Of a stretch of DNA of 64,000 nucleotides, positions 5,270 through 64,000 are shown one piece after another. Each line of letters begins with the position of its first letter. Positions within the stretch are counted from its first letter, which is position 1. Both the position numbers and the translations under genes were made by a program. The notes beneath the pieces were generated by a model. It was given only the letters and a program-made list of their open reading frames with translations, searched no databases and was not told where the DNA came from. This stretch comes from Rhynchonema sp. JSB1_4. Its lineage: Eukaryota; Nematoda; Chromadorea; Monhysterida; Xyalidae. Where the stretch lies: contig JASAMV010004620.1 in NCBI GenBank assembly GCA_030248065.1, positions 1 through 64,000 on the forward strand, written 5' to 3'.

Positions 5270-6785
5270 CATGACCTATTTTTGTTCTTCTTCAAAATGG
5301 CCTCGGGTTCTTTTGTTCAACAACTTTTGTTCTTCTTTGTGTTTTTCTTCTCCATGTAATCATCGACACCGCTCTATCCGTAACTTTCCACTGGCCCACT
5401 AAACACCTGTAATTATTTATGGTTTCGTCGTTACTGCCCAGCTTATGCGTGTTGTTGACGTTACCATGTTGCTTCTGGGGCAATAAAAACCTTGAACCTT
5501 GAACCTTCAACCAAAAAATGGCCTCGGGTTATTATGTTCTTCCACAAAGTGGCCTCGGGCTATTTTGTGCTTCTACAAAGTGGCCTTGGGTTATGTTCTT
5601 CTTCCATAAACTGACCTCGAGCTATTTTGTTCTTACACAAAATGGCTTAGGGCTATTTTGTTCTTCCACAAAATGGCCTCGGGCTATTTTGTTCTTCCAC
5701 AAAATGGCCTCCGGTTATTTTGTTCTTCCACAAAAAGGCCTCGGGCTATTTCGTTCATCCACAAAACGGCCTCGGTCTATTTTGTTCTTTCACAAAATGG
5801 CCTCGGGCTATTTTGTTCTTCCACAAAGTGGCCTCGTGCTATTTTGTTCTTCCACAAAATGGCCTCGGGTTATTTTGTTCTTCCACAAAAAGGCCTCGGG
5901 CTATTTTGTTCATCCACAAAACGGCCTCGGTCTATTTTGTTCTTTCACAAAATGGCCTCGGGCTATTTTGTTCTTCCACAAAGTGGCCTCGGGCTATTTT
6001 GTTCTTCCACAAAATGGCCTCGGGTTATTTTGTTCTTCCACAAAATGGTCTCGGGCTATTTTGTTCTTCCACAAAATGGCCTCGGGTTACTTTCTTCTTC
6101 CACAAAATGGCCTCGGGCTATTTTGTTCTTCCACCAAATGGCCTCGGGCTATTTTGTTCTTCCACAAAGTGGCCTCGTGCTATTTCGTTCGTCCACAAAA
6201 CGGCCTCGGGCTGTTTCGTCCCTCCACAAGATGGCTTAGGGCAATTTTGTTCTTCCACAAAATGGCTTCGGGCTATTTTGTTCTTCCCCAAAATGGCTTA
6301 GGGCAATTTTGTTCTTCCACAAAGTGGCCTCGTGCTATTTCGTTCCTCCACAAAATGGCTTCGGGCTATTTTGTTCTTCCACAAAATGTCTTCGGGCTAG
6401 GCTATTTTGTTCTTCCACAAAATGGCCTCGGGTTCTTTTGTTCAACCAAAAAAATGGCCTCGGGTTATTATGTTCTTCCACAAAGTGGCCTCGGGCTATT
6501 TTGTTCTTTTACAAACTGACCTCGAGCTATTTTGTTCTTCCACAAAATGGCTTAGGGCTATCTTGTTCTTCCACAAAATGACTTCGGGCTATTTTGTTCT
6601 AACACAAAATGGCTTCGGGCTATTTTGTTCTTCCACAAAATGGCTTCGGGCTATTTTGTTCTTCCACAAAATGGCTTCGGCCTATTTTGTTCTTCCACAA
6701 AATGGCCTTGCGCGATTTTGTTCTTCCACAAAATGGCCTTGCGCGATTTTGTTCTTCCACAAAATGGCCTCGGGCTTCCACACTA
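5270..6785. repeat. 31-bp minisatellite
   Basis: About 40 near-identical 31-bp units (core CAAAATGGCCTCGGGCTATT plus TTGTTCTTCCA) run from 5515 to about 6785. Degenerate partial units begin at 5270, directly after the TTAA end of the preceding element, and a unique stretch of about 180 bp (5340-5515, with AATAAA at 5484) separates them from the main array. Because 31 is not a multiple of 3 and the unit has no stop on the plus strand, all three plus frames stay open for hundreds of codons and read the same 31-residue cycle. The long ORFs here are therefore a by-product of the repeat. Unit variants (CTTAGGG, CTTCGGG, CTTGCGC) cluster, suggesting local duplication. Confidence 0.95.
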
Positions 6786-6819
6786 TGGCATTAGTCTGTT
6801 TTGTTCTCTTCTGTTATGC

Positions 6820-9800
6820 TTAAGCCGACGACCAGGGTTGACGATTTGCACTGAGGACTAAAGAATTACCCGATTGCTCGGATAAATACCATTGATTATA
6901 TAGTACCTTAGCGCTGGCCATCTCCAACGAGGCGGATGTTGGCTGTGTGAGCAATAGGATTTGAAGGAATCGATCTTCGACACGATTCCGGGCGTCAGAA
7001 AAGTCAGATTTGATCACCATACGAGCGCGGAATGTGCCGTCCCTGAAGAAATTGAGCATTTGGTTTTGATAAGTTCTTCATTCTATGTCGCACTTTTTTG
7101 TCAAAGGTTGGGCTATGTGAATTTTGGGATCGAGCGCAGCGGCTATAGTTGAACTACGACGGCAATGCATGAGTGATTTTTGACTCCATACACAGTGTGC
7201 AACATCATCGCTTACTTTGACCAATGTAAAGTACTGTTTGCCGACCATTAACACCGCTTGAGCTCGCGAGTACTGCAACTCTGTCAGAATCTGTATAACT
7301 AATTTGCTGCGCTTTCTGGCGTTAACAATAACAACGACATAACAATTGAAGCGGCGGTAGTGCCTACCTTCATATTTCACTTCACTACGGTCCGAATAAA
7401 CGAAACGAAAATAAGCCGTACCAAGTTTGAATATTCGCTCGCGACCAATCAGCATCAGTCACATAGACGTCAGCGAATTGGCTCTGCACCGTTGCATTTG
7501 TGACGCCATTGGTCATCATCAGATAGGCCTCGTTCGCTGAGCGGTTGGTTTTGACGAAAATGTCGGATTTGTCCGTCACAAGCTGGAAGTTTTGCGTCTT
7601 CTGGGGCAGATCAACGCGAATACTCGGGTTGAGCACTGGAAAAAGTTTTATGATGTTGAACGAATGTGTATTATTAATTGTGCGATCATAATTGAGCTAA
7701 ATTAGGATCTTTGGCTAATGTTAGTGTGGTCAACTTAGATTGTCAACCAAAATCGTCAACTCAGGCAGCCCCGGGAGACATGGCGTTCGGCATGAGTTGA
7801 AGGACTTCAGTTGACGCTCTGAGTGGACGAGTTGAATGTAAGCATTAAGTTTGCGTGTTTGACTCCACTCTTTATTGCGCGCATACATTCATGAAGCTGG
7901 CAAGCGTTACCAGCTTATAACCGTGGTTTGGAGATCTCAGTTTTCGTTTTTATCTTCGCAGGTGGATTTGCAGATCGGAACAAAATGGTTGCCCACAAAG
8001 ATACTTTTTGGCAAAGGCAATCTTATATATCCAGCCAGATTAATCGAGCTTTTGATGATTGCTGTGGAGCTAAATAAATTGGATCAGAACACGTGGGTAG
8101 ATCTTTGCGTTGCTTGATCTCGGCATATTGTGTTTAATTTGCACAATGAGGCAGAAAATTGCTTGTTCCAACAGCAATTGCTTTTACTGTAAGCTGCGCA
8201 ATAATCGAAATTTTCGCCGTTATTTTCTTCTATATTTGGCGTTGCATTCGCTTTTGAAAACGTGGACGCTTTCCTTTCAGGTCACTTTCACCCGATACTT
8301 GAAAACGCAGACATGATTCGCATTCCCGCAATTCTGGTGAGTTCTTCCGAAATCCATAATCGATATGTAATTATCTTGTTTTACATCAAAATAATCAAAA
8401 CAATTCGAAGGTGGTCGCTTCAATGGTGGCTCTGATGCCCATCGAAGCGCGGGCTGATGCTGGTTGGTCAAAGAGACCATGCTGACTTTTAGCAACACAG
8501 CAGTTTTTGACAAAATCTCCAAAAGCATTCTGCCGTATTTCATTTAGCATGTGCGGATGTATCAACAGAGTCATGCAACTACATCATCAAAACTGTGGGT
8601 GTGTCAACCTGCAGAGAAGTGATGGATAAAACCTGGCCCGATATGAGCAAGCAGGACCTGGAGAGCACAATGCGTCAACTGTGTCCGAAAACGTGTGGAT
8701 TCTGCTAACAATAAAAATTATCTAGAAGGGCTCTTGCGATCTCAAGGTCATTTCGCTTTTCATTCAACAGCCCAAGCACAAGTCACGATTAGTTGATTCT
8801 GGCAAGTGAAAATTGTGAAGAAGTCCACGCGCCTTGTGACAGCACCATTTTGTAAAAAAATTTTGTAAATGGGTGTCCAGCGATGAAGGTGTACTGTATG
8901 TGAAAGAAAAGTCGAAATTGCATAATGTTCAGATCGTGTTGTGGTGTGGCGCGTAAACGTTATTGTGTGTGTCAGTTGCATAACGTTGTCATTATTATAT
9001 AATTGAATTATTATATTCATGCAAATGTACTCCAACTCTTTATTTTATTGGTGCCGGCTAAATTGTAAAACCCTAGGTATTCATCGTTACTGTCACGCCT
9101 CGAGCGGTTGTTGATGCTTACCCTTTTCGTGTCTGAAACGAAATAAAGTGCTACTACTACTACTACTACCATTTATGCTCGTTCACATAAATGTATTGGT
9201 CTTCAATAAAGGGAGGCAGGTGTAAAAGAACGCAGCACTGACAACACTATCGTTGCTTTTCTGATTATACTTGCATATGAAAACGAAAGAAATGAGTTAC
9301 TTGTAGGTACGGTACGTTTTACTTTTTCCGATTAAAAAAAAGAATTGTAAAACCCGTCAAGCAACACACGTCCGCAACAGAGAAACCATCCAGCTGCGGA
9401 ATTCGTTTCCATTTAACACAGCAGAAAATCGGTCACCAACCGGTTATATTCGTGGTCGATATTTCCGGATTGATCGTGACATCCGATTGCGTTGAGTCGA
9501 CTCGCATTTGCACAAATGTTTCAAGCACATTCACTGTTGATACACCGCTCGTGATGTTGATCAGTTGACTGATGCTCACCTGGAAATTTTACAATGCACA
9601 CCTGACCGTTGAACGAGACTGGGATGACTTTTTTGTGTTTTTTTTTGTTTTGGTTTTGCGCTGGCATCGTTTATATACTGTAAATGTTTCAAAACACGCT
9701 TCTAAATTGGTTTAGCAATAGTTCTGCGATTAGTTCTCTACACATGCCCCTCAGCAGCAGCGGTCAAACAACCCCCCTTCCTCCTTGGAAGAGAACCTCA

Positions 9801-21752: not shown

Positions 21753-22288
21753 GCTGATGTTTCACTCTCTTGGCAGTCGATTTGTCAGTCGATTCCGGAG
21801 GCAGTGACTGTGCGTTGCTAATTGCTTGGACACGAATGTCGGCCCGCTGCGATCTTATGTCCTGATTCTGAATAGTCGCGATTTCGACATTTTTGTTGTT
21901 GAGATCTCTAAATTTGATACTGCAACCACCAACGCTCGCTTTATGGCAGTATTGCACACCGATTTTAGGGTCTGGTCTGAAAATAAGAGATGTTGTGAGG
22001 CACAATGCTAAAAATATGCGGCGCCAATGGGCTGATTTTGACACTTGCTAGTTGATACAGTTGTTAACCCAGATCATCAAATCAACTCAAGCAGCCCCGA
22101 GTGGGCGCGGGAAAAATACTTGGCATTCGGCGTGTGTGTTGATGTGTGGTCTGGCGAATAGACACACCCATACGCGTCGAGGCGTATAACGAACGGATCG
22201 GTGTTATGTGTGTGTGTGCTGCGGTGCACTGTGTGTTGAGTGTGCGTGCGTTGTGTTTATGAGTGATTCTGAGCCGCAGCCAGACCGC

Positions 22289-22372
22289 GTTCCCGTAGCT
22301 CAGTTGGTAGAGCAACTGGCTATCCAGGCCTGGTGGCTGGGGAGGTCGGAGGTTCGAGTCCTTCCGGGAGCA
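22289..22372 (+). tRNA. tRNA-like gene with an enlarged anticodon/variable region
   Basis: Perfect 7-bp acceptor stem (GTTCCCG with CGGGAGC), U8-A9, a D-arm GCTC-AGTTGGTA-GAGC and a T-arm GGAGG-TTCGAGT-CCTTC, so both internal pol III boxes are intact. Between the D and T stems lie 34 nt instead of the usual 23 or so. The best anticodon stem is CTGGC/GCCTG (four pairs), which leaves loop TATCCAG (TCC in the anticodon position, but A rather than U at position 33) and a 15-nt variable region. It may be a class II tRNA with a long variable arm, an intron-containing tRNA or a pseudogene. A covariance-model scan would decide. Confidence 0.55.
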
Positions 22373-22543
22373 TACGTTTGGTGTGGCGGTTCAGAGTTCA
22401 CAGATGACTTTATTTCACAATCTGAGTTGACGAGTTGAATATAAGCCCAGAAATGTTTACATAATGGACCATGAGGGCTTCTTTTAAGTTCGAGCATATT
22501 GCCATAAGATTGAAAGCCCATACGTCGAACATGATACTGTTAT

Positions 22544-22735
22544 CTAAGATGGTCCATCCAAGCTCCGAAAAAGACAGGGGACTGGGCCGCGCCGGAAACA
22601 CTGTGCGTTGTGAACCAAACGAGTAAAGAGGGATGTGTAAATTCCATTTAGGCGCCGCGCGATCGAGTGACAACTTACAAATGAAGCGTGAAAGACGCCC
22701 ATAGCCAAAAAAATAAGTACTGCGTGCCTTGCCAC
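22544..22735 (-). other. possible signal-peptide exon of a small secreted protein
   Basis: Minus-strand ATG at 22735 opens a signal-like stretch (MARHAVLIFLAMGVFHASF) that ends exactly at a consensus donor, TTT/GTAAGT. A downstream acceptor CGCACAG near 22608 followed by TGT in phase 0 would give only a further 18 codons with two cysteines before a stop; other frames are open longer. The mature product is therefore unresolved. Confidence 0.3.
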
Positions 22736-23019
22736 AGGAAAGCTGCCGTGAAAAAAACAGAAACGAAGTTAGCGCGACAGATTTGATGAACCGACATCTG
22801 GGTGCTGGGCCCCGGGCGATTGTTTCGTGATATGAACAAGGCACACGGAATGGCACGATGCTGGGAAAAAGGTTTTTGATTTTAGCTGCGTTTGAAGGAA
22901 ATATTCGTCGTTACGGTCATTCTTTCTTAGAGCCGAGGGCTCATTGTTGTTTATCTCTGCTGCACTTTGTATAGCTTGTGTTTATGTTGTTCATGCGCGT
23001 ATGCACCATAGCCAACATA

Positions 23020-23247
23020 GGGTGGAATTTTCGAAACGGTGTTAAGGTCAGTTGGGCGTAAAGGTCGGCGTAAAGTTCGGTCGAAAGCTCGATCGGCGTA
23101 TAGCTCGGTGTAAACGTGAAACATTACCTGTTATTAACGTGGATTGTTTCAAGTTTACACCGAGGTCTATCACACTGAGCTGTCGACCGAGCTTTCCATC
23201 GACCTTTACACCCAACTGACCTTTACACCGTTTCGAAAATATCACCC
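23020..23247. mobile_element. 228-bp foldback element (MITE-like)
   Basis: Inverted ends GGGTG-ATTTTCGAAACGGTGT and their complement, followed by imperfect inverted runs of a GGTCRRYRTAAAG motif (GGCGTAAAGGTCGG ... CCGACCTTTACGCC-like). No ORF. Flanks are AT-rich with TA on both sides; the target duplication is not certain. Confidence 0.7.
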
Positions 23248-26200
23248 ATAATACATAGGTGAGTAATATCATGTAGTGGCGGGGCGGAATGATGTGATCC
23301 CCAGGATGTGAACACATGTACATACAGTACATATACTGCAAGGTATACATATTTATGTTCTTGATACCAGCGCTGAGTTCGCTCGTGCACAAAGGCAAAA
23401 ATGGGCAGGAGCTTAACGAGCTCACGGGTGGTTACCATACTGCTGAAAATTTCGCCAAAAATCACACTTTTTGCATTGCTCACGTCTCTGGAACAACACG
23501 GATAACAATTTTATCCACCACAGTTTTGATTGCCCCGTCTTAGATAGTAGACATCCTACACCACCAACACGCGGCAAAAGAAATCTCTAAAAAGCTGCTG
23601 AATTTTTTCCAAGAAAAAAGGTAAAACCCATTACCCAACTGGCTGCTGGGTTTTAGTGTCTGCGAATGTGTGAGTGAAACCCTAATAACGCGCGTAAACA
23701 GTGGCTCATTTATGACAACATTGCGGTTTCTTGGGTATTTGAAGTCAGCTACGGTGCCCATTTGAGAAAAAGTAGCATCATGGGCCCAACAATTTACCAA
23801 AAAAATCAACTTCAAGAAAATGCTCTTCGGCGTTTGTCAACAAACGTTTTTAGTCTCTCGTCTTTTCGGATTCAAAGGCGTAAAAAGACACGCCAATCAG
23901 CATCAACCAGCATGAGTGAGCAACTATGCATCCAGTCATATCGCTAGAAAAATAGACCATAAATAGCCCATTCAGGATCCATTTATGGGTTGGGGCTAGA
24001 TTTAGAAATGGGACAGAAAGTTCATTTAATGTGACGCTATTGGGACTCCTTGAGACCTTAAGAAAGCTTCGGATGTAAGAAATTTGGTCAGACAGGATAT
24101 TGTCTCATGTGATCGAAAAAGACTACACCACACTTTGGTGTGACCTTTTTGGCCCCTGGAAGCAGTTAGCCAGCCCACGGATACTGCGGTGTGAGTATAA
24201 TGACGTGCTTATGCAACACACCCGGACTTGAAGACACGCGTAAATTGTTTGTGTTGTCTAACCGGGCGCATTAGAAATGCAAAAGTTTTCCGTCTTGTTT
24301 GTTTCCTGGAGCTCTGGCTTACACTTTTTTCGGCCAACACACTAAAATGACACCTAAAACATTACGTATGCACAATGTATAAAGCTGGACCAAACAAAAG
24401 TCTCAAAACTAACGGGTAAATAACAAAAGTTGGGTCATGGAGTCAGCAGGCGCAATGAAGGTGTTTAGTATACAGTTTCTTACACACGAGATGTTTGAAA
24501 CAGCAGCAGCTTATTGGCCACGGCCCCAGTGCAAGTCATGTACGTTCACTTTCATAACACGATGTACCTGTGTTGTTCAGCACCCGTCAACGGGTTAGGC
24601 ACATCCGCCGGGGAATCCCAATTAAGTTGTCTGGGACCCTCAATTGTGTACCTTGGTCTTGGGCTTAAAAAAGTTTAGTTTACAAACAACCGCCAGGCTG
24701 GCGACGTATAGGTATTATGTACATATTTGCCACCAGTGGGGCTCAAACGGAAAGAATCCATTTCGAGCAGCGAAACCAGGGCAGGGCGCTGGATCGGAAT
24801 TTTCCGGCCGGATCCGTATCATGCTATTTTATACTGACCTCATGCATTCATAATGAAATGAAAATAAGCTGTACACCTTAGTAACGTTGTTGACGCGCGG
24901 CTACAGCTAAATGGTCAAAGCCATAGGAGAAAGCGCTCTGCCATTACTCGGCCAAAGCTTGCTTCTTTATGCGCTTGTTGCAAATTTTGTGCACAAAAAT
25001 GCAAATTTCTACAAAGTTGTCGATGTCGGGTCTCCGTGGTTGACAAAGAAGAGTCCGAAACAAAGAAAAATAACAGTGAGGAGGCGAACTTCGGAAATGG
25101 TTCGTGCATACATGTCATGTAGCCAAAAAAGTGTTCCAAAGCCAACAAAAGGCAATATCTGCAGACGTATGTTTAAATTATTGAGCGCTTCGAGTGTGAA
25201 GGCGCCATATCGGTTTCACAAAAACGATATCTGACCCCAGAATCTGACACCTATGGTTGCATCATGTTAGCCCACCCACCAAGAAGAGCAGCCTTACGCG
25301 GTAAAAGAAGCAATCTCTACTGAACGCGCAAGGTTATTTTTTGGATTTTTGATTTGTTTCATATCAGAGTGGCGCCGAAAGGGGAGCTTTCGGCGTAGAA
25401 GCCTTTTTCGAATATGTTTGTTGTTGCCGAGCGTTAGGCCAGTACCAAAACACTGCGATCGGCCCGGTTTCGTTTTGCCTAAGCGACTTTTTTTCCTTTT
25501 GCATAAGCACATTCAGGTAGGCACTAAGATTGGGGTCTAAATTAGGCATCCGAAACCTTTGAACCTGTCTGGGAAGAAGTTTTACATTGGACGAAAGTTG
25601 TGCACGACTAAATTTCGATTGCTGAGGACGAAAGTCACGTGACCAAAGTCAAGACCGATCCAATGGGTGTTTTGATATACCGTGTCTTCATGTTTGGTTC
25701 ACAAATATTACCGCCAGCAACCGAGAAACAGAAGTGTGGTATAGAACGAGCGCCCTGGGAGCAAAAGCACATGGCTGTAGACATTACACCCCAACAAGTT
25801 GAAGCTCTTGCCTGCGCATGCTTGCGGGCTGACATCAAATCAGCGGCTTGAAACAAAAATATGATGCCATACATACATACACGCAAATATAGAGGAGTGA
25901 TGGGCCACTTTGGTGTTATTGAACCCGCTTTGGATGGGTTAAAACGCGATGGGTTGGGCTAATTTTGAACATGTTTATCTGGCGATGTGTTTCCGTTGAA
26001 AATCAGGGCATAAAGCCAGCAAATTCTGATTTTTTTAAAACACTATAAGGTATATGTCGAAGCATGAACTTTGGGCGGAGCGGGGATTTAATTGAAATTG
26101 CTTTTTGTTGCTCCCAAACAAACACATCTTTGGGTCTGTACTATCTTGACTTGGAAATACAACATTTGGCAAGCTTACTACAATACTTCGAGGGAGTACT

Positions 26201-29200
26201 CAAGAAAATTGTACCAAATGGCTTTCAACAAACCAGAAGACCGAAAAACGAAATGCAGCAAAGTGCCACAACACAGTTTGTACAACAACATTTTGATAAG
26301 CAGCCATATCTTAATGGTTACTATAGTATACGAACACACTGAACCAAAAGATGAGAACACTTTAGTTCCGCAATTTTGCGCAATGTTATGTTTGTGGGCT
26401 GGACATTGGACAGTAGACTAGACTACCTCGGACATTGAAAAATGGGCCGAATTTTTAGAAGATTGCCGAAGTAACAGTTGACCACAGAGAGAGATGCTGC
26501 AATTTTAGCAATTTTCCTCAATCCGGCTCAATTATCTAAAGTACGCCAGACTGGACACTATACATCATTTCCTGCCCGAGGCGTCTAAAACCAAATGTTG
26601 CGCGAAAACTTAGCGCCTCGCTCTAAAGCGCGCTCAAACAAGGCTGGAAGGCCTGTTCTTATTGTAGTTTCATTGATACTGTGGCACCAACAAGCAACAA
26701 CAACAAGCGGCCACCGTTGGCACAAATCTCGAAAATTTGTCACTAATCGGTACTATCGTATGGTCCTTAGGTGGTACATAGGACCACTACGGAGCAAAGT
26801 GTGCCCAAAAACTAAGAAATGAGGTCTCCAGACAGATATACCTGGAAACTTTGCTGTTGATACCTTTGCACAATTGTCGTCAATAATTTACGTCTGTGAC
26901 GGGTTTGACGACCTAATTTTTATGGATTGTCTACTCTCTTATTGCATAATTTTCGGGCTTGGGCGCGAAATGCAATGACAGCTTCGCGTGGTATATATGA
27001 CGAGCCTCTTTCTTTCAAAAATGATTTCACAAATAACAGCCTCTGAGAAACAGAAACTAGTCAGAGCAGAACTAAACCAGTTAAAATATAAAGTTGAGAA
27101 AATTGTGAACTCCACAGTAAACCTGAGCGCATCAAATTATTAGCCATTAAGAGCACATTAAGCGGCCACAAAAACAAAATTACAACCAACCGAGCCCAAA
27201 ACCACCTACTACAACGTTGCGGTGTGGCATCCAACACATAGTAGTCCACCACAAATGAGCGAAATAAAGAGCGATGATCAGTCAAAAAAGAGCTGCGGTG
27301 TGAAAAAAACGGCCAAACTTATTGCGCTGAAATACCCAGTCGCATGGTGTAAACTGACAGAGTTGAGCGCAAAAAGAGTGTTGTGAAATTTGGGCGTCAG
27401 CTGCCGCGACGGCCACTCACAACAACGAAATGCGGCCGGATCGAAAAGAAATTTGCGACAATGTTGAGCCTGGTTGGATCATAAATTTCCGTTCAACTTT
27501 ATTCGGTACCTTCGTTCACCATCACTCTTATTTTAGTTGTACCGAACAATTTTGGTCTGAGAAACGCACGCGTCTGTTGCGTATCAAATCGCGGCGTGCA
27601 AGAAAAAACTATTAGTCTCGTCCCGTGTCTCACCAAAGCCATTGGCTGCCCATATGGCGCTAACAAAATATGTCGCCAAAACCAAAAGGCGCCTGAAACA
27701 CACCAATATCGAGTGTGCCACAGCTCAGCCATAGCGTCAGACCCAACTTGGTTACAGTTATGCCACACCCAAGAAGACACTCTGCTATCTTTTCGATATA
27801 TTCGCAAAGTTTTTGGTCCCGGCATCCCTTGCCTCGTGCTGTGTGTACAAAATGTGTCTCGGTGTAAAAAGTGAGAGACCAACTTTTGTCACTATACAGT
27901 ATATGGCGAGGTTTGAGGCCGCCAAAAACACTTTCTTCCCTGTTGCCTGATATTATGCCATGCGGCGGCTAACACATTTCAGAGATATTGGCGAGGTAAC
28001 CTATGCATTGGAAGATGCAGTGCCCATGTGGGATGCGCTTTGGGGACCATAACTTTGTACAGTTTGTTTCAATATTGAGTGTTCGTCAAAAAGTGTCCAT
28101 TTGACACGTGGATATGGCGTAATTTTCAACACATCCTACACAGTTTCAGCAAACATGTAATGTGGCGTTTCGTAAACATAAACTTGAAGAAGATTGAAGA
28201 AAGAAGAGAAGAACTTTAACTTTTTGGAACTAAGTATGATTCAAATCAATCAGTGATGAATCAGTAAGATTACTATCGGAATACCAATTTGATGGATGTT
28301 TTGGTCTGTACCGTTTGGCGAGCTGACGAAAAACGTTTGAAGATGTTAGAGGTCACCTGAACCGTTCCGTTGAGTCTGGAGAATGTGCATATACATACAT
28401 ACATACCTACCGTACGTATCCCAAAGGCACAAAGCACACAGTTAAAGAATGAGCTAGGCCTACTTAACAAATTTAATTTTCAGTCCGATACCCAAAAACG
28501 TCACTGAAGACCTTGACCCTGATTCTGCCGGGCGGCTCCATTTCCTGCTTCCGAATATCCCTTTGCAGTCAAAGGCGATGGTCATGCATAGTGGCTGCTT
28601 TCGCTGTCATACGTTTACATACGCCCGCACAAAAAAACCTTACGGTCATTTTTCATCTCTTTCACGGTAAAAAGAACACGAAATTATGAATGATTACGCG
28701 ACCGTTCAGCACTGACGGCCCTCAATTTTTGGGGAAAAAATTCACCAATGTTCCAAATAATGCCCCAGTCAAGAAACTCATCAGGTATGGCAAAAACGAA
28801 TTTCTGTCACAAAACTGAGCCGAAGAAACACAATTTGAATCAAGAAAGGGGGCGAGAATACTTGCACAGCTGCGTGGATTATCAAATCAGCCAAATGCCT
28901 GTGAGAAATCTCGGCAGCACCAACGTCAAAAAACTACTCAGTCACTGGCTCGGCTTTTTGTTAATACGTAGCCATGTACTACTATATACACGTACGTAAT
29001 GTACCTTAGCGCATTTGTTACTGGCAAGAGAGCTTCAATACTGTTGCAAAAGTCGAGAATGGTATATATTGTACGGAAAGTAATCAGTCATAAGATATAT
29101 CCAAAGCGTGTCCAGCAGGCTATGAGCCATGAATTATGATGGAAGTTCTCTGACTTTTGTAGTATCCTACACCCATATGTATGTATGTATGTTGTACAAC

Positions 29201-55425: not shown

Positions 55426-55700
55426 ATATAGTAAGTTTCTAATTTCGTTGCCTCATGCATTCTTACAGCCGCAGGAAAACTCCAGTTCGAAGTCGAGGCA
55501 GGCAACAAGCTCAACACACAGTCAACAAGCCACGCAGCTGGATCGTGTGCGTTTCAAATGTTTCAGTCACACAAGCTGTGTGTGTCAGCTGCGTGGCTTG
55601 TTCACTGTGTGTTGAGCTTGTTGCCTGCTTCGACTTCGAATGGGAGTTTCCCTGCGTCTGTAAGGATGCATGAGGCAACGAAATTAGAAACTTACTATAT
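55426..55700. mobile_element. 275-bp near-perfect palindrome (MITE-like)
   Basis: Arms of about 113 bp: ATATAGTAAGTTTCTAATTT at the left and AAATTAGAAACTTACTATAT at the right, with matching CATGCATcctTACAG, TTCGAAGTCGA and CAACAAGCTCAACACACAGT blocks inward. It ends 37 bp before the ATG of the next gene, and TATATAAA sits at its right border. Confidence 0.85.
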
Positions 55701-58700: not shown

Positions 58701-61700
58701 TGCAATTGCACGCTGATGGCCGAGACTCTGGACAACCAACTTGGCAACACGCCAGCTTGCAATGTGACGCAGACAATGCTCTGCACGCCTGTGGGCGTGC
58801 ACAAAATTACCATGGCTATGGAGTTAGTTCTTGAGTTGTGATTCTAATGGCATCGCTATGCACAAAATGCAGAGACCGCAAAAATGCGGGCAATAAATTT
58901 CAATCTGTGCGTTCAGAAGAACTGTGAACCATTGTGAGAATAACCGGGGGACTTCCCGGAACGATGAAGTTCATTTTGAAAGTAATCGACAGTCGGGTTA
59001 CTTAAGAATAATTACCGGAGACAAAATCAATCCAGGGCGCAAACCTATCTCGACGCATCTAATAAGGACTCGATATCGGCGTGTCTCGCGGCTTGCAAGC
59101 CTCCTTGTGACCGGCGCACAATTTTGAAGGCAAACGTTGTCAGCGCGCCAATGCCTGCCAAACGGTACATTCCCGAATATCAGGCAGACAAAAACGAGTG
59201 ACAAAAATTTCTTTGTTTTCTTGCGTTTTCAAAAGAATATTCAAATTCTGATCAAAACCTTGGTTGGAGTTTAGTGAGAACTTAATCATTTCACCAATTT
59301 TGCAGAACTACGCGAAATCGCAGGGCTGGAATACCAACGTGACCGAACTAATTCAAGTGCGCAAAGTCTATCGAAAATAATTTTGTTTGATTTCCAGCAC
59401 TGCAGTGCTATCACAGTTTGTTGCATTCAAAGGGTAAAGCAAATTCCCCTGCTATGCAGATCAGTCTCTTCTTCGCCGACATGCAAGAGACGATTGTTGA
59501 AACACGCGAGAAAGTCTCGGTGGCAACTGTTATTGGCAACATCGGCGGTCAAACAGGTAAACGCCCGGCTCAATGCACAGGTCAGAATACTGCTTCGCGA
59601 CCCCCGTGCAATCAAATGCGTGGTCAGTAGTTGTTCATGGATCGCATTTCGTGACCCACTACCCGCATGCCATGTGAAAGCACCCTATACAGTAAAGTCA
59701 CGTTGCGCTCTCAGCTAAGGTAATCACAATCGATGTCTGAGCGCAACGTCCACGCTGGTCCACTTGCATGAGTGGTGCGGGTTCCGTGCTGTTCGGTGTT
59801 CAAAGAACCACCACGCGTAACAGCTGTTACTATCCTTCCGTCGGGTCTAGACGACAGAACGAGTTCCACCGGAATAGACATTATCGACGGGCGTTTCACA
59901 TCCCCTTCGAAATGACCCAATCGGAGATTGTAGTCAGCCACCCTCAACTCTCCCTCCGGTTCGAAGTATACACACTTCACGATCGGTTCGTACAGTACGT
60001 CGTACTCACGTTTCTGTTTAGTTTGGTTGGGACCTCCAGTAGCACTTTCAGGCGTGCCACAGCCTGTTTCATCCTGTTGGCTGCTCATACACTCTTCAAC
60101 TGAGGCACCATGCCACAGGGATCGCGTCTTTCCGACTGGCACTATACGCATCGACACACTGACGGTGTGCGAATGCACTGGGTAGTCCAGTTCGGGTAAG
60201 TCGGAGTACCGTGTGCGTTCTCTGAGCGCATTCTCAAGCACATTCGGCATGGACAACATCGGGTCCTCATTCCGACACATATCGTTGTATAATCCACAAG
60301 TCACGGGTTCGGAACCCTCTTGCAGTGGCATGCCCGGACTGTGGCGGTCTCCATATGGTAGCACTCGTATCGGCACTCGGTTATCGAGTATCTCGCCCCA
60401 CAGGTCAAACAATTGACGCGTCTTGGCGGATCTCGGATCCCGTGCGCTCTCGATCTCACACAATCCGCGAACCTCGGCGAGACACCGGCCATCAAACTCG
60501 CACAAAGGCTCATACGTCAGCGATATCACGTTCAAATACTCCGAAATCCTGGATGCAAGCAATCTATCATGCGGTAGTTCCTCCGCATACAACCATTTCA
60601 ACAGATGGTCACTGTATCGGTGCGTGGTGAACACGATATCAACCACTTCTTCATGCAACTGCCAAGGTTCAGCGAACCTGGGTGCATTCAACCAATCCTC
60701 TTGCCACGATACTTCGCGTATCTGGTCCTCATCGAGCTCTTCCTGCGAGTACAGATCGAGCACGTTCTCTCTGGTCGGCTCTGACTCAGACTGATACCTC
60801 TCACGAATCCGTGTGCGTCCGGAATCCGTATTCGAATTCTCGTAACGGACCTGTCGCGCTGGTTGCGCTCGTCCGGTTTCCTGCCCTTGCGACACTCGTT
60901 TAGTGTCCTGCCCTTTCGCTCCCGGCTCGGTGGCCGCACAACTCTCATGCGCCTTCTGCGCCCTTTCCTCTGCCTGACCCTCCGGTCCCTCCTTCGCGTG
61001 GGCTTCATGCCCTTCCTTCACACGGGCTTCCTGCCCCTTCGTTGTACGATCCTGTCTCTCCTCCACTCGGACTCCTTGTCCCTTATCCGCACGGATCTCC
61101 TGCGCTTTGCGCGCCCGTGCTTCCTTCAGCCATTCATCGTACAACTCCTGCGCCCGCAGCGCCTGTTGAGCACTCAAAAGCTCCGTCCGCCTGGACCCAG
61201 CATGGAACTCCTGCGCTGCCTGCGCTTGTCCAGCTCTAATGTCCGGTCGGCTCACCCTTCTATCTGACGGTCGAACATCAGCTAGCTCTGACCGCACGGA
61301 CCTAGCGTGGAACTCCTGCGCTGCTTGCGCCTGTCCAGCTTTCGTGTCCGGTCGGTACACCTGCCTAGCTGAGTGGTTCGACTGACCACAGTTGTGGTTT
61401 CCTGACTTATCGACATCCGCGCTACGGCGGCCGTTGAACTGAGTGACGTCCGCATCCGACCCCTGGTCCTTTGACTTACGGTCGATGCATTCCGAAAACC
61501 CAAAAGCATGGTTCTCGATAAACGAAACATCACTGTCACTCTCATCATCATCCCAGAATTTCCACTCGGTCCCTCCGCGACCGATGGACACCACTGACTC
61601 GCCCGACTGACCTATCCATCCGCCTGTCTGTTCTCCCTGCCTCGGCGGACTGCTGCGGTCATCGGCGGTTCTCGTCCGGAAACTGGCATCCGGCATTGCC

Positions 61701-62760
61701 TTGTTCGACCGGGAATTGACGTCCGGCAACTGATTGTTCTTCCGGGAATTGACGTCCGGCATTGGTTCGCGACGAATGGACTCGCCGCTTGAAGAATGCA
61801 TCGGTGCTGCGAATTTCATCAACCCACACCGATGAGTCGACGCGCGAATATATTCAAGCTTGTCGACGGATTAGTAACCGAGGTTGCGAGTATGCTCGAG
61901 CGTCCCCGGACCGAAGTTGCGAATATGTTCAAGCGTCTCCGGTACCTGATCTAGAAAATCTGCAAAAGCTGGAAGTCCCAGTCAGGTTAGGTTAGGTACA
62001 TAAATATATAATACATGCAATAGGACGAATCACAAACCAAAACCAACGTCGCGAATATATTCGAGCTCCGAGGGCTTTTATTGGCTTGGAAACGAACGAC
62101 CTTTTCCAATAGTAGGTCACTGTGGGTATGGCGGAAGATTTGAGTCTAACCACTAAAAGTGAAGACTGCTTATATGTGTTTTGGGACGTAGTGTCTAAGG
62201 ATACATCACACACATAAGGTATGGATTATAAAAACAAGAAAAGTTACTGTACGCAAAGTATGCAAATTTACCATACGACACACGCAAACAAGGAGAGACT
62301 TAATCCCTCACTCGAACGATCGCTAACCACTTCATAACGAACGTTCACACAACACAGTCACGCAAGGGAACATCTACCGAACTGCTCATTTACGCAGGTT
62401 GACTCGCCTGCACGCATAGTGCTTTCCGGACTGACTTCGGAACCGACCAATCACAGTACCGGTCTACTTATGTCCCTTGACTTCACGTGTCCCTCACGTG
62501 TCGTATTCCAAACGACAACTTGGATACTTACGCGTCCGCGTAAACTCTAACCATGAAGTATCATGGATATCTTCTTGCTCATGCGGTGTCTGCCAGCCCT
62601 CAATATGTATGTACATACTTACAACGAACTCTGCTGTTGTTTCAATCTTTCAGGCTTGTTCCTGGGCGCATCTCTTGTGAGCATTGCACAGATCTTCTAC
62701 TATTTGTGCGCCTCCGTTTGTCATCGAGTTGCTAAGAAGAGCTCGGTACGGCAAACTTGA
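55738..62760 (+). CDS. DEG/ENaC-family sodium channel, about thirteen exons
   Basis: Exons 55738-55899, 55994-56113, 56189-56254, 56818-57103, 57265-57397, 57515-57654, 57737-57826, 57897-58073, 58642-58822, 59036-59138, 59306-59356, 59406-59556 and 62654-62760, about 588 residues. Marks: SSLHGIIDLYQ and TM1 (GKVFWVFVITAGFVGVCL), ELPNVTVCNTN, CLAGGTKFDCC, YGLCHTI, GAPFGMQLVID, PYQPDC, the SSCIFDCMQ and KTCNC finger cysteines, CLAACKPPC, ISLFFADM and IGGQ-TGLFLGAS, where G-A-S fits the selectivity filter. Phases agree up to 59036. The end of that exon (59138 or 59197) and the two small exons after it are less sure. The product may continue past 62760 if the donor TCG/GTACGG is used. The last intron (3.1 kb) contains a 703-codon ORF on the other strand; intron 3 holds a TA-flanked MITE. 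Related in layout to the 36-42 kb channel but in opposite orientation and clearly diverged. Confidence 0.88.
56310..56774. mobile_element. TA-flanked MITE with CCGGAGTTTTCCAC ends
   Basis: CCGGAGTTTTCCACCTAAAG at the left and CTTTAAGTGGAAAACTCCGG at the right, bordered by TA (56308-56309 and 56775-56776). Subterminal AGCCCCCGGGGGCT palindromes recur four times. No ORF. In intron 3 of the DEG/ENaC gene. Confidence 0.85.
58155..58610. repeat. degenerate (ACATAAACATGAAC)n tract
   Basis: A-rich tandem array of AACATGAACA/ATAAACA variants about 450 bp long, in intron 8 of the DEG/ENaC gene. The long minus-strand Phe/Cys/Leu-rich frames across it are products of the repeat. Confidence 0.8.
59711..61822 (-). 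CDS. 703-codon uninterrupted orphan ORF inside a channel intron
   Basis: A single minus-strand frame (ATG 61822, stop 59711) in the 3.1-kb last intron of the DEG/ENaC gene. It is markedly GC-richer than its surroundings. Layout: residues 20-48 with three PD(V/A)(N/S) SR/FR-type repeats; an acidic Trp-containing stretch (EWKFWDDDESDSD); two 28-residue repeats near 154-215 sharing RAGQAQAAQEFHA; a charged Arg/Glu/Gln/Ala stretch with KEGHEAHAKEG; then about 350 residues that look globular (VVDIVFTTHRYSDHLLKWLY, CLAEVRGLCEIES, VKCVYFEPEGELRVADYNLR). No signal peptide, TM segment, zinc knuckle, protease or polymerase motif is visible. It could be a retrogene, a gag-like domesticated gene, horizontally acquired DNA or a lineage-specific gene. 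Imperfect 32-bp repeats precede it and a TATATA-like word lies near 62005. Confidence 0.7.
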   Translation of the reverse strand: MMKFAAPMHSSSGESIRREPMPDVNSRKNNQLPDVNSRSNKAMPDASFRTRTADDRSSPPRQGEQTGGWIGQSGESVVSIGRGGTEWKFWDDDESDSDVSFIENHAFGFSECIDRKSKDQGSDADVTQFNGRRSADVDKSGNHNCGQSNHSARQVYRPDTKAGQAQAAQEFHARSVRSELADVRPSDRRVSRPDIRAGQAQAAQEFHAGSRRTELLSAQQALRAQELYDEWLKEARARKAQEIRADKGQGVRVEERQDRTTKGQEARVKEGHEAHAKEGPEGQAEERAQKAHESCAATEPGAKGQDTKRVSQGQETGRAQPARQVRYENSNTDSGRTRIRERYQSESEPTRENVLDLYSQEELDEDQIREVSWQEDWLNAPRFAEPWQLHEEVVDIVFTTHRYSDHLLKWLYAEELPHDRLLASRISEYLNVISLTYEPLCEFDGRCLAEVRGLCEIESARDPRSAKTRQLFDLWGEILDNRVPIRVLPYGDRHSPGMPLQEGSEPVTCGLYNDMCRNEDPMLSMPNVLENALRERTRYSDLPELDYPVHSHTVSVSMRIVPVGKTRSLWHGASVEECMSSQQDETGCGTPESATGGPNQTKQKREYDVLYEPIVKCVYFEPEGELRVADYNLRLGHFEGDVKRPSIMSIPVELVLSSRPDGRIVTAVTRGGSLNTEQHGTRTTHASGPAWTLRSDIDCDYLS
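61838..62072. repeat. imperfect ~32-bp repeats upstream of the orphan ORF
   Basis: Units resembling CGAAGTTGCGAATATGTTCA and AGCGTCTCCGG occur three times at 61838-61950 and once more at 62049-62072. They lie on the 5' side of the minus-strand ORF, where a promoter would be. Confidence 0.65.
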
Positions 62761-64000
62761 AAAAATATACAATCTCTGGAATCTGTCTACATTTCTCGTT
62801 GTACGTGAATTATTCCGAGTGATAAACCTGTCCTGTTCTGTCAACAGCCCACTGTTTGCCAGAGGGTATTGTTGAAAAAGTCAGAGAATCTGAAAAGATG
62901 TAGCATAGAATGGAATACCCATAGAATGACTTTTACTAGCCAACAGATGAACGACTCAAGCGTGTTTCTTGTAGTCTATCCATCACTGGTATATTATATA
63001 CATCCCCAACATAAAAGGACGACGTTTGAGCTGGTCACAATACATATTCGATCACTGAGTAAAATCTGCAGGAATCGGTACAAACACTCGATACAAAATC
63101 AGCGGTGATGGAAAATCCATAAAAGACAAAAAATCAATACAAAAAAAAGACAAGAGAGAAAAAAATAATAAAAAAAAACCAAAAAAAAAAAAAAAAAAAA
63201 CCCCCCAAAAAAAAAAAAAAAAAACCCCCCAAAAAATAAGGCCGCTTTCACAATCATCCGGTTTCCGGAATCCGGTTTCCTGTTTCCGGAATTGGCTTCA
63301 AATCCGGTTTTCCTAAATGCTTTTTCCGGTTTCCGGAATCCGGAAGTTGCTTTCACAATCATCCGGTTTCCGGTTTCCGGTTTTCGCCCTAATTCAAATC
63401 CGTTTTCCGGCGGCCGGAAACCGGAAAAAGCCATTTAGAGCCGGTTCTAATTTTTTATCCGGTTTTGCGTGCATGATGGGTTCTGAACGCCATGGGTGGG
63501 ATGGACAAGTTTACTTGTGTGATGACTTGTTGCTCGTGTCGGCACACAAATAAATTATATGCTTACAATATTCACGAATATCACTCATGTACTGATGCAT
63601 TCTAGCGATATTTTCATAAGGTTCGCAACGTGGCGTAAATTTATTGCATAAATAAAGCTGAGAAAAGCCAACAGCCACGCTTTCAGGCCCAAAAGAGCTT
63701 TGAAGATCAGGAACACATCGCGCATGTTCATGTGTTGATGTGTTGTTCACGCGCTGAGTTGGTGTTCTTATACCATACCATGCAATACCACTATACCATT
63801 ACCATACGACCACAACCAAAGAATCTTCACTTCTGGATCTGGCACACTCGTTTGTTTCTATAAGGTGACCTAAAAGTAGTCTTTCCGGACACAAATGTTG
63901 TCTAAAACCAGAGCCATTGAGCATTTTACTGCACCGCACTACGCTTTCTATTTGTGAATACAGGATTTCGTATCAACAGTCGTTCGATGTCGATCGTCAT
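62761..64000. other. no firm gene; A/C tract and CCGGAA hairpins
   Basis: An A-rich tract with two C6 interruptions at 63125-63236 is followed by CCGGTTTCCGGAA repeats (63241-63440) that fold back on themselves. On the minus strand near 63725 a hydrophobic run (MRDVFLIFKALLGLKAWLLAFLS in one frame) might be a signal or TM exon of a gene whose start lies near or beyond the window end, but no chain could be built. Confidence 0.4.

Follow-up and report, generated by a model that had tools for sequence, protein, structure and literature searches.

The long minus-strand open reading frame (ORF) at 59711..61822 of the 64,000-nucleotide stretch analysed here (hereafter the window; positions 1 to 64,000 of contig JASAMV010004620.1, assembly GCA_030248065.1, from the nematode Rhynchonema sp. 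JSB1_4) is very probably the coding stretch of a solo long terminal repeat (LTR) derived from a giant LTR retroelement that has the Ty3-type domain order. A first-pass annotation made from the sequence alone had recorded at this position an intact, GC-rich orphan ORF of 703 codons, nested antisense in an intron of a DEG/ENaC gene, and its location, composition and nesting were confirmed. The frame runs from an ATG at 61819 to a stop codon ending at 59711 (702 codons), with a TTG at 61822 as an alternative, less likely start, and its GC content is 55.7% compared with 44.0% for the window. The joined flanking exons of the host gene match the Pfam family ASC (PF00858, E-value 4.4e-12) to the final profile position, and the intron measures 284 bp once the LTR and one copy of its target-site duplication (TSD) are subtracted. 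The open frame is intact as described, with the correction that its last 19 codons and stop are host intron. The features of the locus are listed below by window position and strand.

59557..62653, plus strand: last coding intron of the DEG/ENaC gene, holding the solo LTR (read from the GT-AG boundaries and the reading frame)
59771..62579, minus strand: solo LTR of 2809 bp with the ends AG...CT (sharp homology limits among copies; the same unit lies at both ends of the giant element on contig C2207)
59767..59770, no strand: TSD CATG, 3' side of the element
62580..62583, no strand: TSD CATG, 5' side of the element
62077..62082, minus strand: AATAAA at LTR position 498, the sole AATAAA or ATTAAA in the window LTR (with a putative polyadenylation and/or TATA-like role)
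59771..61819, minus strand: element-derived coding part of the frame, 683 codons, start of the first ORF of the giant element (continues in frame beyond the LTR end on C2207 and C1456)
59771..60829, minus strand: codons 331-683, under clear purifying selection (pN/pS 0.24; omega 0.37, P 7.9e-10)
59711..59770, minus strand: final 19 codons and stop of the frame, made up of TSD and host intron (outside the homology limits of the element)

With 63 of 261 candidates scored, a protein-level search of the genome of the same nematode (204 Mb in 5747 contigs) with the window frame returned at least 91 matched stretches. Among the scored matches, 36 single-row matches covered at least 590 residues, and 30 of these were free of stop codons while six contained one stop. 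Twenty copies with their flanks were taken from the top of the protein-score list, omitting C4200 (ranked 16th, one stop) and including L015 (one stop). These copies align with the window within 59764-62594 at most and their immediate flanks do not align, the homology limit being sharp at the 3' end in 20 of 20 copies and at the 5' end in 17 of 20 (the 5' end is missing in L017, L020, and L024); in L018, L019, and L027, other repeats give additional short matches elsewhere in the window. Together with the window copy, 11 of the 21 copies are flanked by a perfect TSD of 4 bp and have neither a primer binding site (PBS) nor a polypurine tract (PPT) next to them, and nine of these 11 duplications are of the form YATR. 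A PBS was present in two of the 21 copies (L014 and L022) and a PPT in two (L016 and L023). The termini AG...CT form an inverted dinucleotide other than TG...CA. Since TG...CA is the usual but not a strictly required pair of LTR termini, these ends were not taken as excluding membership among the LTR retrotransposons. The sequence is not single-copy but belongs to a set of about 100 LTR copies dispersed in the genome, and the earlier suggestions of an orphan, a retrocopied or a transferred gene are not supported.

A complete element was found on contig C2207, with LTRs at 6314-9083 (L022, 3215-5984) and 44629-47366 (L023, 3330-6067) on the same strand, a total length of 41,053 bp, an internal region of 35,545 bp, and TATG flanking the element on both outer sides. 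The sequence TGGAGGTCCCACCGCTG directly follows the LTR unit in L014 and L022, and AAAGGGCAGGAAGGT directly precedes it in L016 and L023. The PBS, TGGAGGTCCCACCG, is complementary over 14 nucleotides (11 plus the CCA tail) to the 3' end of a tRNA-Gln(CTG) whose gene lies at C529:3658-3729 (control: 0), and the PPT, AAAGGGCAGGAAGG, which includes one C, adjoins the 3' LTR. A 12-base tRNA-end pattern was uninformative (15 matches compared with 37 for the reversed control), the tRNA-Gln gene was not among the 63 candidates scored (of 11,954) in an Rfam tRNA search, and the 28 loci scanned with ARAGORN yielded no tRNA. The LTR pair of C2207 is 97.5% identical, with 40 differences at 2738 aligned sites (Kimura two-parameter distance, K2P, 0.0148) and 32 gap columns, which suggests a fairly recent insertion. 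On C2268 (L014), an LTR-PBS junction is followed by internal sequence that departs from the C2207 homology about 0.9 kb beyond the LTR; another LTR, oppositely oriented, lies 3.2 kb further on.

On C2207 the first ORF (ORF1) starts at 7086, at the methionine that corresponds to residue 7 of the window protein, comprises 666 codons within the 5' LTR, passes through the PBS in frame and extends to 22115, giving 5,009 residues. The same LTR-internal junction is present on C1456, where the frame likewise continues. A DSGSS motif at about codon 4,590, near the end of ORF1, was read as the protease. The pol frame (21815-26587) overlaps the end of ORF1 in the -1 frame and contains, in this order, the Pfam domains RVT_1, RNase H, Integrase_H2C2, and rve. 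The element thus has the Ty3-type order of reverse transcriptase (RT), RNase H (RH) and integrase (IN), an order which Bel/Pao shares. The 120 pol matches listed (of 229) include one with the name 'Gypsy retrotransposon integrase-like protein 1'. Downstream of pol, C2207 has open frames of 1,799, 471, and 223 residues. No Pfam family was found in ORF3 (1,799 aa, C2207:29760-35159, in L030/L031, searched in pieces) or in ORF4 (471 aa), and the first 1,047 residues of ORF3 have matches solely at C2207 itself and in broken pieces on C2622; ORF3 may represent env, an accessory gene or a nested insertion. A motif resembling VYPGKGxYPK or VWPGKGKYPK occurs about three to four times in ORF1 of C2207 (L022, L029), as if a domain had been duplicated within the polyprotein. 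Further families in the same genome (on C1196 and others) have an RT that is 38-55% identical and open frames of up to 2,935 codons, and this nematode may commonly encode large polyproteins.

That the frame is a genuine coding sequence kept by selection follows from the alignment of the 18 complete LTRs among the 21 (L017, L020, and L024 were left out as they have no 5' end), in which codon position 3 is the most variable position. The pairwise ratio of nonsynonymous to synonymous differences per site (pN/pS) was 0.77 for codons 1-100, 0.68 for codons 101-330, and 0.24 for codons 331-683. The corresponding ratio computed against the mutation spectrum of the LTR part upstream of the frame (omega) was 0.94, 0.75, and 0.37, the P value for the last region treating variable sites as independent. 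Gap runs, which were counted over sequences and not over events, had a length that is a multiple of three in 63 of 75 cases within the frame (the other 12 were of length 1) compared with 0 of 114 upstream of it. Choosing copies by protein score may favour those with few amino-acid changes, but this choice does not by itself explain why the N- and C-terminal parts of the same copies differ. A comparison of dN/dS between paralogues had been proposed in the first-pass annotation, together with the view that survival of the frame points to selection or recent arrival, and purifying selection on codons 331-683 agrees with the former. Selection most likely acted on the replicating parent elements.

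The same data bear on the reading of the frame as an accidental opening in a GC-rich repeat, which is extremely unlikely. GC-rich sequence does have fewer stops, and the 100 N-terminal codons look neutral. However, in 2000 order-1 Markov sequences modelled on the element part of the frame (683 codons, 2049 nt), the longest frame on either strand reached 403 codons at most, with a median of 175, so that the length of the window frame is far beyond the chance expectation, as had been argued before; moreover, codons 331-683 are clearly constrained, gaps keep the frame, and the window frame is the start of an ORF of 5,009 codons. The case named earlier as fatal, in which the ORF is a chance frame of a known GC-rich repeat, came out in part: the sequence belongs to a repeat, but the frame in this repeat is coding.

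Patterns for the ends and junctions were counted over the genome. With up to two mismatches there were 104 5' ends and 103 3' ends of the LTR (100 of each were listed) and three LTR-PBS junctions, and with up to three mismatches there were two PPT-LTR junctions, while the reversed-pattern controls gave 0 for each of the four patterns. The pol query matched at more than 70% identity on C2207 and on the C1456 fragments, the next match being 55% identical (39 of 312 candidates scored). Because PBS and PPT junctions are so few beside about 100 LTR ends, most copies look like solo LTRs, although pattern counts miss strongly diverged junctions. Solo LTRs also make up a large part of the remnants of LTR elements in the bdelloid account consulted in part (PMC5408684), and a large share of this kind is ordinary. 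The roughly 100 dispersed ends and the many copies with a TSD and one ORF, as opposed to a single assembled giant copy, would also suit a small transposon with one ORF and a 4-bp TSD, a unit of 2.8 kb that the giant element had captured at both ends. We regard this as very unlikely: the frame leaves the unit through the tRNA-Gln PBS at the unit end and the PPT lies just before the other copy, which are the textbook positions for an LTR; within the unit the window frame meets no stop codon, and it terminates in the host sequence; and purifying selection is clearest next to the 3' end of the unit, where the tail of a free-standing protein would be random.

Several observations weigh against the solo-LTR interpretation or narrow it. 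The assembly contains a single full-length copy, on contig C2207, and the second internal copy, on C1456, is collinear over much of ORF1 but has neither most of the RT nor the stretch of 27.1-42.2 kb, which was either deleted in C1456 or inserted in C2207; the full length therefore rests on a single example and may include a nested insertion. The assembly of 5747 contigs may collapse or drop copies of 41 kb, which makes the ratio of solo to full copies uncertain. L009, L019, and L028 have both ends and yet no perfect TSD, and Pfam recognised no capsid family in ORF1. Finally, the LTR pair of C2207, identical at insertion, shows 14 synonymous and 16 nonsynonymous changes where about 7-8 synonymous changes of 30 are expected under neutrality (P 0.004-0.011), and this synonymous excess is unexplained. 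Older, selected differences could have entered the LTR pair by exchange between elements or by template switching, in which case the LTR-pair distance of C2207 is an upper bound for its age.

This excess matters for the question whether the window copy itself was domesticated, i.e., whether it is a solo-LTR gene with its own promoter that is selected by the host. In favour of this the frame of 683 codons is open in the window copy, and the window and L009 differ by 17 synonymous and 21 nonsynonymous changes (dN/dS about 0.36), with more synonymous changes than under neutrality (P 0.003-0.009). However, the LTR pair of the one C2207 element shows a similar ratio, differences between two solo LTRs may have arisen already in the parent elements, the many long stop-free matches elsewhere in the genome (see above) indicate that openness needs no local selection, and the tail of the protein is intron. 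Domestication is accordingly considered very improbable. The synonymous excesses of the C2207 pair and of the window and L009 are alike, and the sequence is compatible both with selection on the window copy and with its absence. Of the domesticated gag-like gene suggested by the first-pass annotation, the gag-like part is a fair description for the start of the gag-side polyprotein of a retroelement.

Searches for relatives agreed with the earlier statement that no family is recognised. With the window ORF, Pfam gave 0 families for the whole protein and for its two halves, the PDB gave 0 matches, a search of 5.8 billion proteins gave none at E-values up to 1 among the 7992 candidates scored, and PHROGs gave a single sub-threshold match (E-value 0.076). 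Nothing was found in IMG/VR or in the prokaryote contigs of GTDB, to which little weight is given as they hold few or no animal sequences, would reveal only close relatives of a single protein, and may omit the genome of the window. Across all the collections covered, in few of which animals are represented, no relative was found. The later 2,900 residues of ORF1 had no match at E-values up to 1 among 3416 candidates. Pol had only general relatives of the same domain type, and none in IMG/VR. A capsid-like stretch at about codons 3,940-4,150 was read by eye and was not confirmed by the Pfam and PDB searches, the latter giving no match; the CCHC text pattern was found in neither ORF1 piece, and Pfam gave no gag family. 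An AlphaFold prediction for the C-terminal half from the single sequence failed (predicted local distance difference test, pLDDT, 35) and was not used as evidence.

Exactly one AATAAA or ATTAAA occurs in each of the 18 complete LTRs, at position 496-508 and some 260 bp upstream of the ATG at 761. In the window LTR there is an ATG at 579, and the next ATG is that of the frame. We propose that the transcript of the parent element would start in the 5' LTR upstream of the frame, between this signal and the ATG, where the R region would also lie. Translation of the 5,009-residue polyprotein would begin within the LTR and pass the tRNA-Gln PBS in frame, with the protease motif near its end and Pol then presumably made by -1 frameshifting. 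The LTR would thus carry promoter and signals together with the 666-683 N-terminal codons, the product of which is probably structural or involved in packaging, and reverse transcription would copy this frame into both LTRs. At the window locus, an element inserted antisense into the DEG/ENaC intron and duplicated CATG, after which recombination between its LTRs probably excised one of them along with all internal sequence (about 38 kb, assuming the size of the C2207 copy). The remaining LTR would be a promoter-plus-ORF remnant, and its frame now extends for 19 codons into the host intron. Each solo-LTR formation would leave such a free-standing unit, and it is a speculative and rather unlikely extension that scores of them are still transcribed and yield N-terminal proteins with variable tails, which may act on the parent element (e.g., as dominant-negative Gag-side fragments) or be adopted by the host; truncated Gag restricts Ty1.

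Other repeats in the window include a cluster of short direct and inverted repeats of the TCCGGTTTCCGG type at 63244-63431, downstream of the last coding exon of the channel gene, and, near the same gene, a palindrome at 55426-55700 with two arms of 115 nt that are 94% complementary and 45 nt apart. A copy of this palindrome, which is a foldback element or one resembling a miniature inverted-repeat transposable element (MITE), is found in L027 at 8196-8473 and matches in both orientations (92% in one). A 31-bp minisatellite with 40.6 copies at 5511-6776 is open in several frames and gives a frame of 333 codons, which should not be mistaken for a gene. ARAGORN found a tRNA-Gly and a tRNA-Thr in the window.

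Two consequences extend beyond this locus. The element shows how dozens of long, clean, intronless 'orphan genes' can be present in a genome and yet be LTR remnants, a trap for gene prediction, and a frame of nearly 700 codons that lies in the LTR and crosses the PBS means that both LTRs must receive this coding sequence during reverse transcription. The literature searched, which covers subscription journals thinly, gave no LTR described as having a coding stretch of similar extent, although this is no proof of absence. The kind of element is known, and it is the coding stretch of about 2 kb inside the LTR together with the internal region of 35.5 kb that is unusual. The closest counterparts are the Burro elements of planarians, for which the portion of the published description consulted gives giant Ty3/gypsy-like LTR elements with an internal region of up to 25 kb and a total of more than 30 kb, an ORF1 of 4,873 aa in Burro1, and an ORF1 N-terminus that is a Gag with CCHC knuckles (PMC6431247). 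By that description, both are giant LTR retroelements of animals with the order PR-RT-RH-IN (PR, protease), a first ORF of about 5,000 codons and accessory coding capacity. The internal 35.5 kb and total 41.1 kb of C2207 (one copy) lie above the Burro figures given there, and, unlike in Burro, there is no CCHC pattern here, the capsid-like stretch lies far into ORF1, and the first 666 codons are in the LTR. MATH, BIR, ankyrin, and BCL2 had no Pfam match in the present element, which is a further difference from Burro.

In Ty1 of yeast, the GAG frame opens a few codons short of the LTR terminus, and integrase precedes RT. Its PBS is reported to lie inside the GAG frame just beyond the 334-bp LTR, and silent changes of the PBS keep the GAG amino acids (the part consulted of PMC5454406). 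As far as that part extends, the PBS lies within the main reading frame in both elements. The few LTR codons of Ty1 contrast with the 666-683 here, and its integrase before RT with the RT-RH-IN order here. The sag gene of mouse mammary tumour virus (MMTV) is a separate accessory gene in U3 of the 3' LTR. It resembles the present case in having a protein frame in the LTR, so that a single LTR can carry promoter and ORF, and differs in that the LTR frame here is the start of the main polyprotein and lies downstream of the presumed start site. The Ogre elements of legumes are described, in the portion of the source consulted, as 16-25 kb in total with a size that is mostly due to their LTRs (1.9-6.5 kb) and with one to two extra ORFs in an internal region of 11-13 kb (PMC6431247); they are likewise giant Ty3/gypsy elements with long LTRs and extra ORFs, at 16-25 kb compared with 41.1 kb here. 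The 666-683 codons in the LTR and the internal region of 35.5 kb lie outside the figures given in the parts consulted of the Ty1 and Burro accounts (PMC5454406, PMC6431247).

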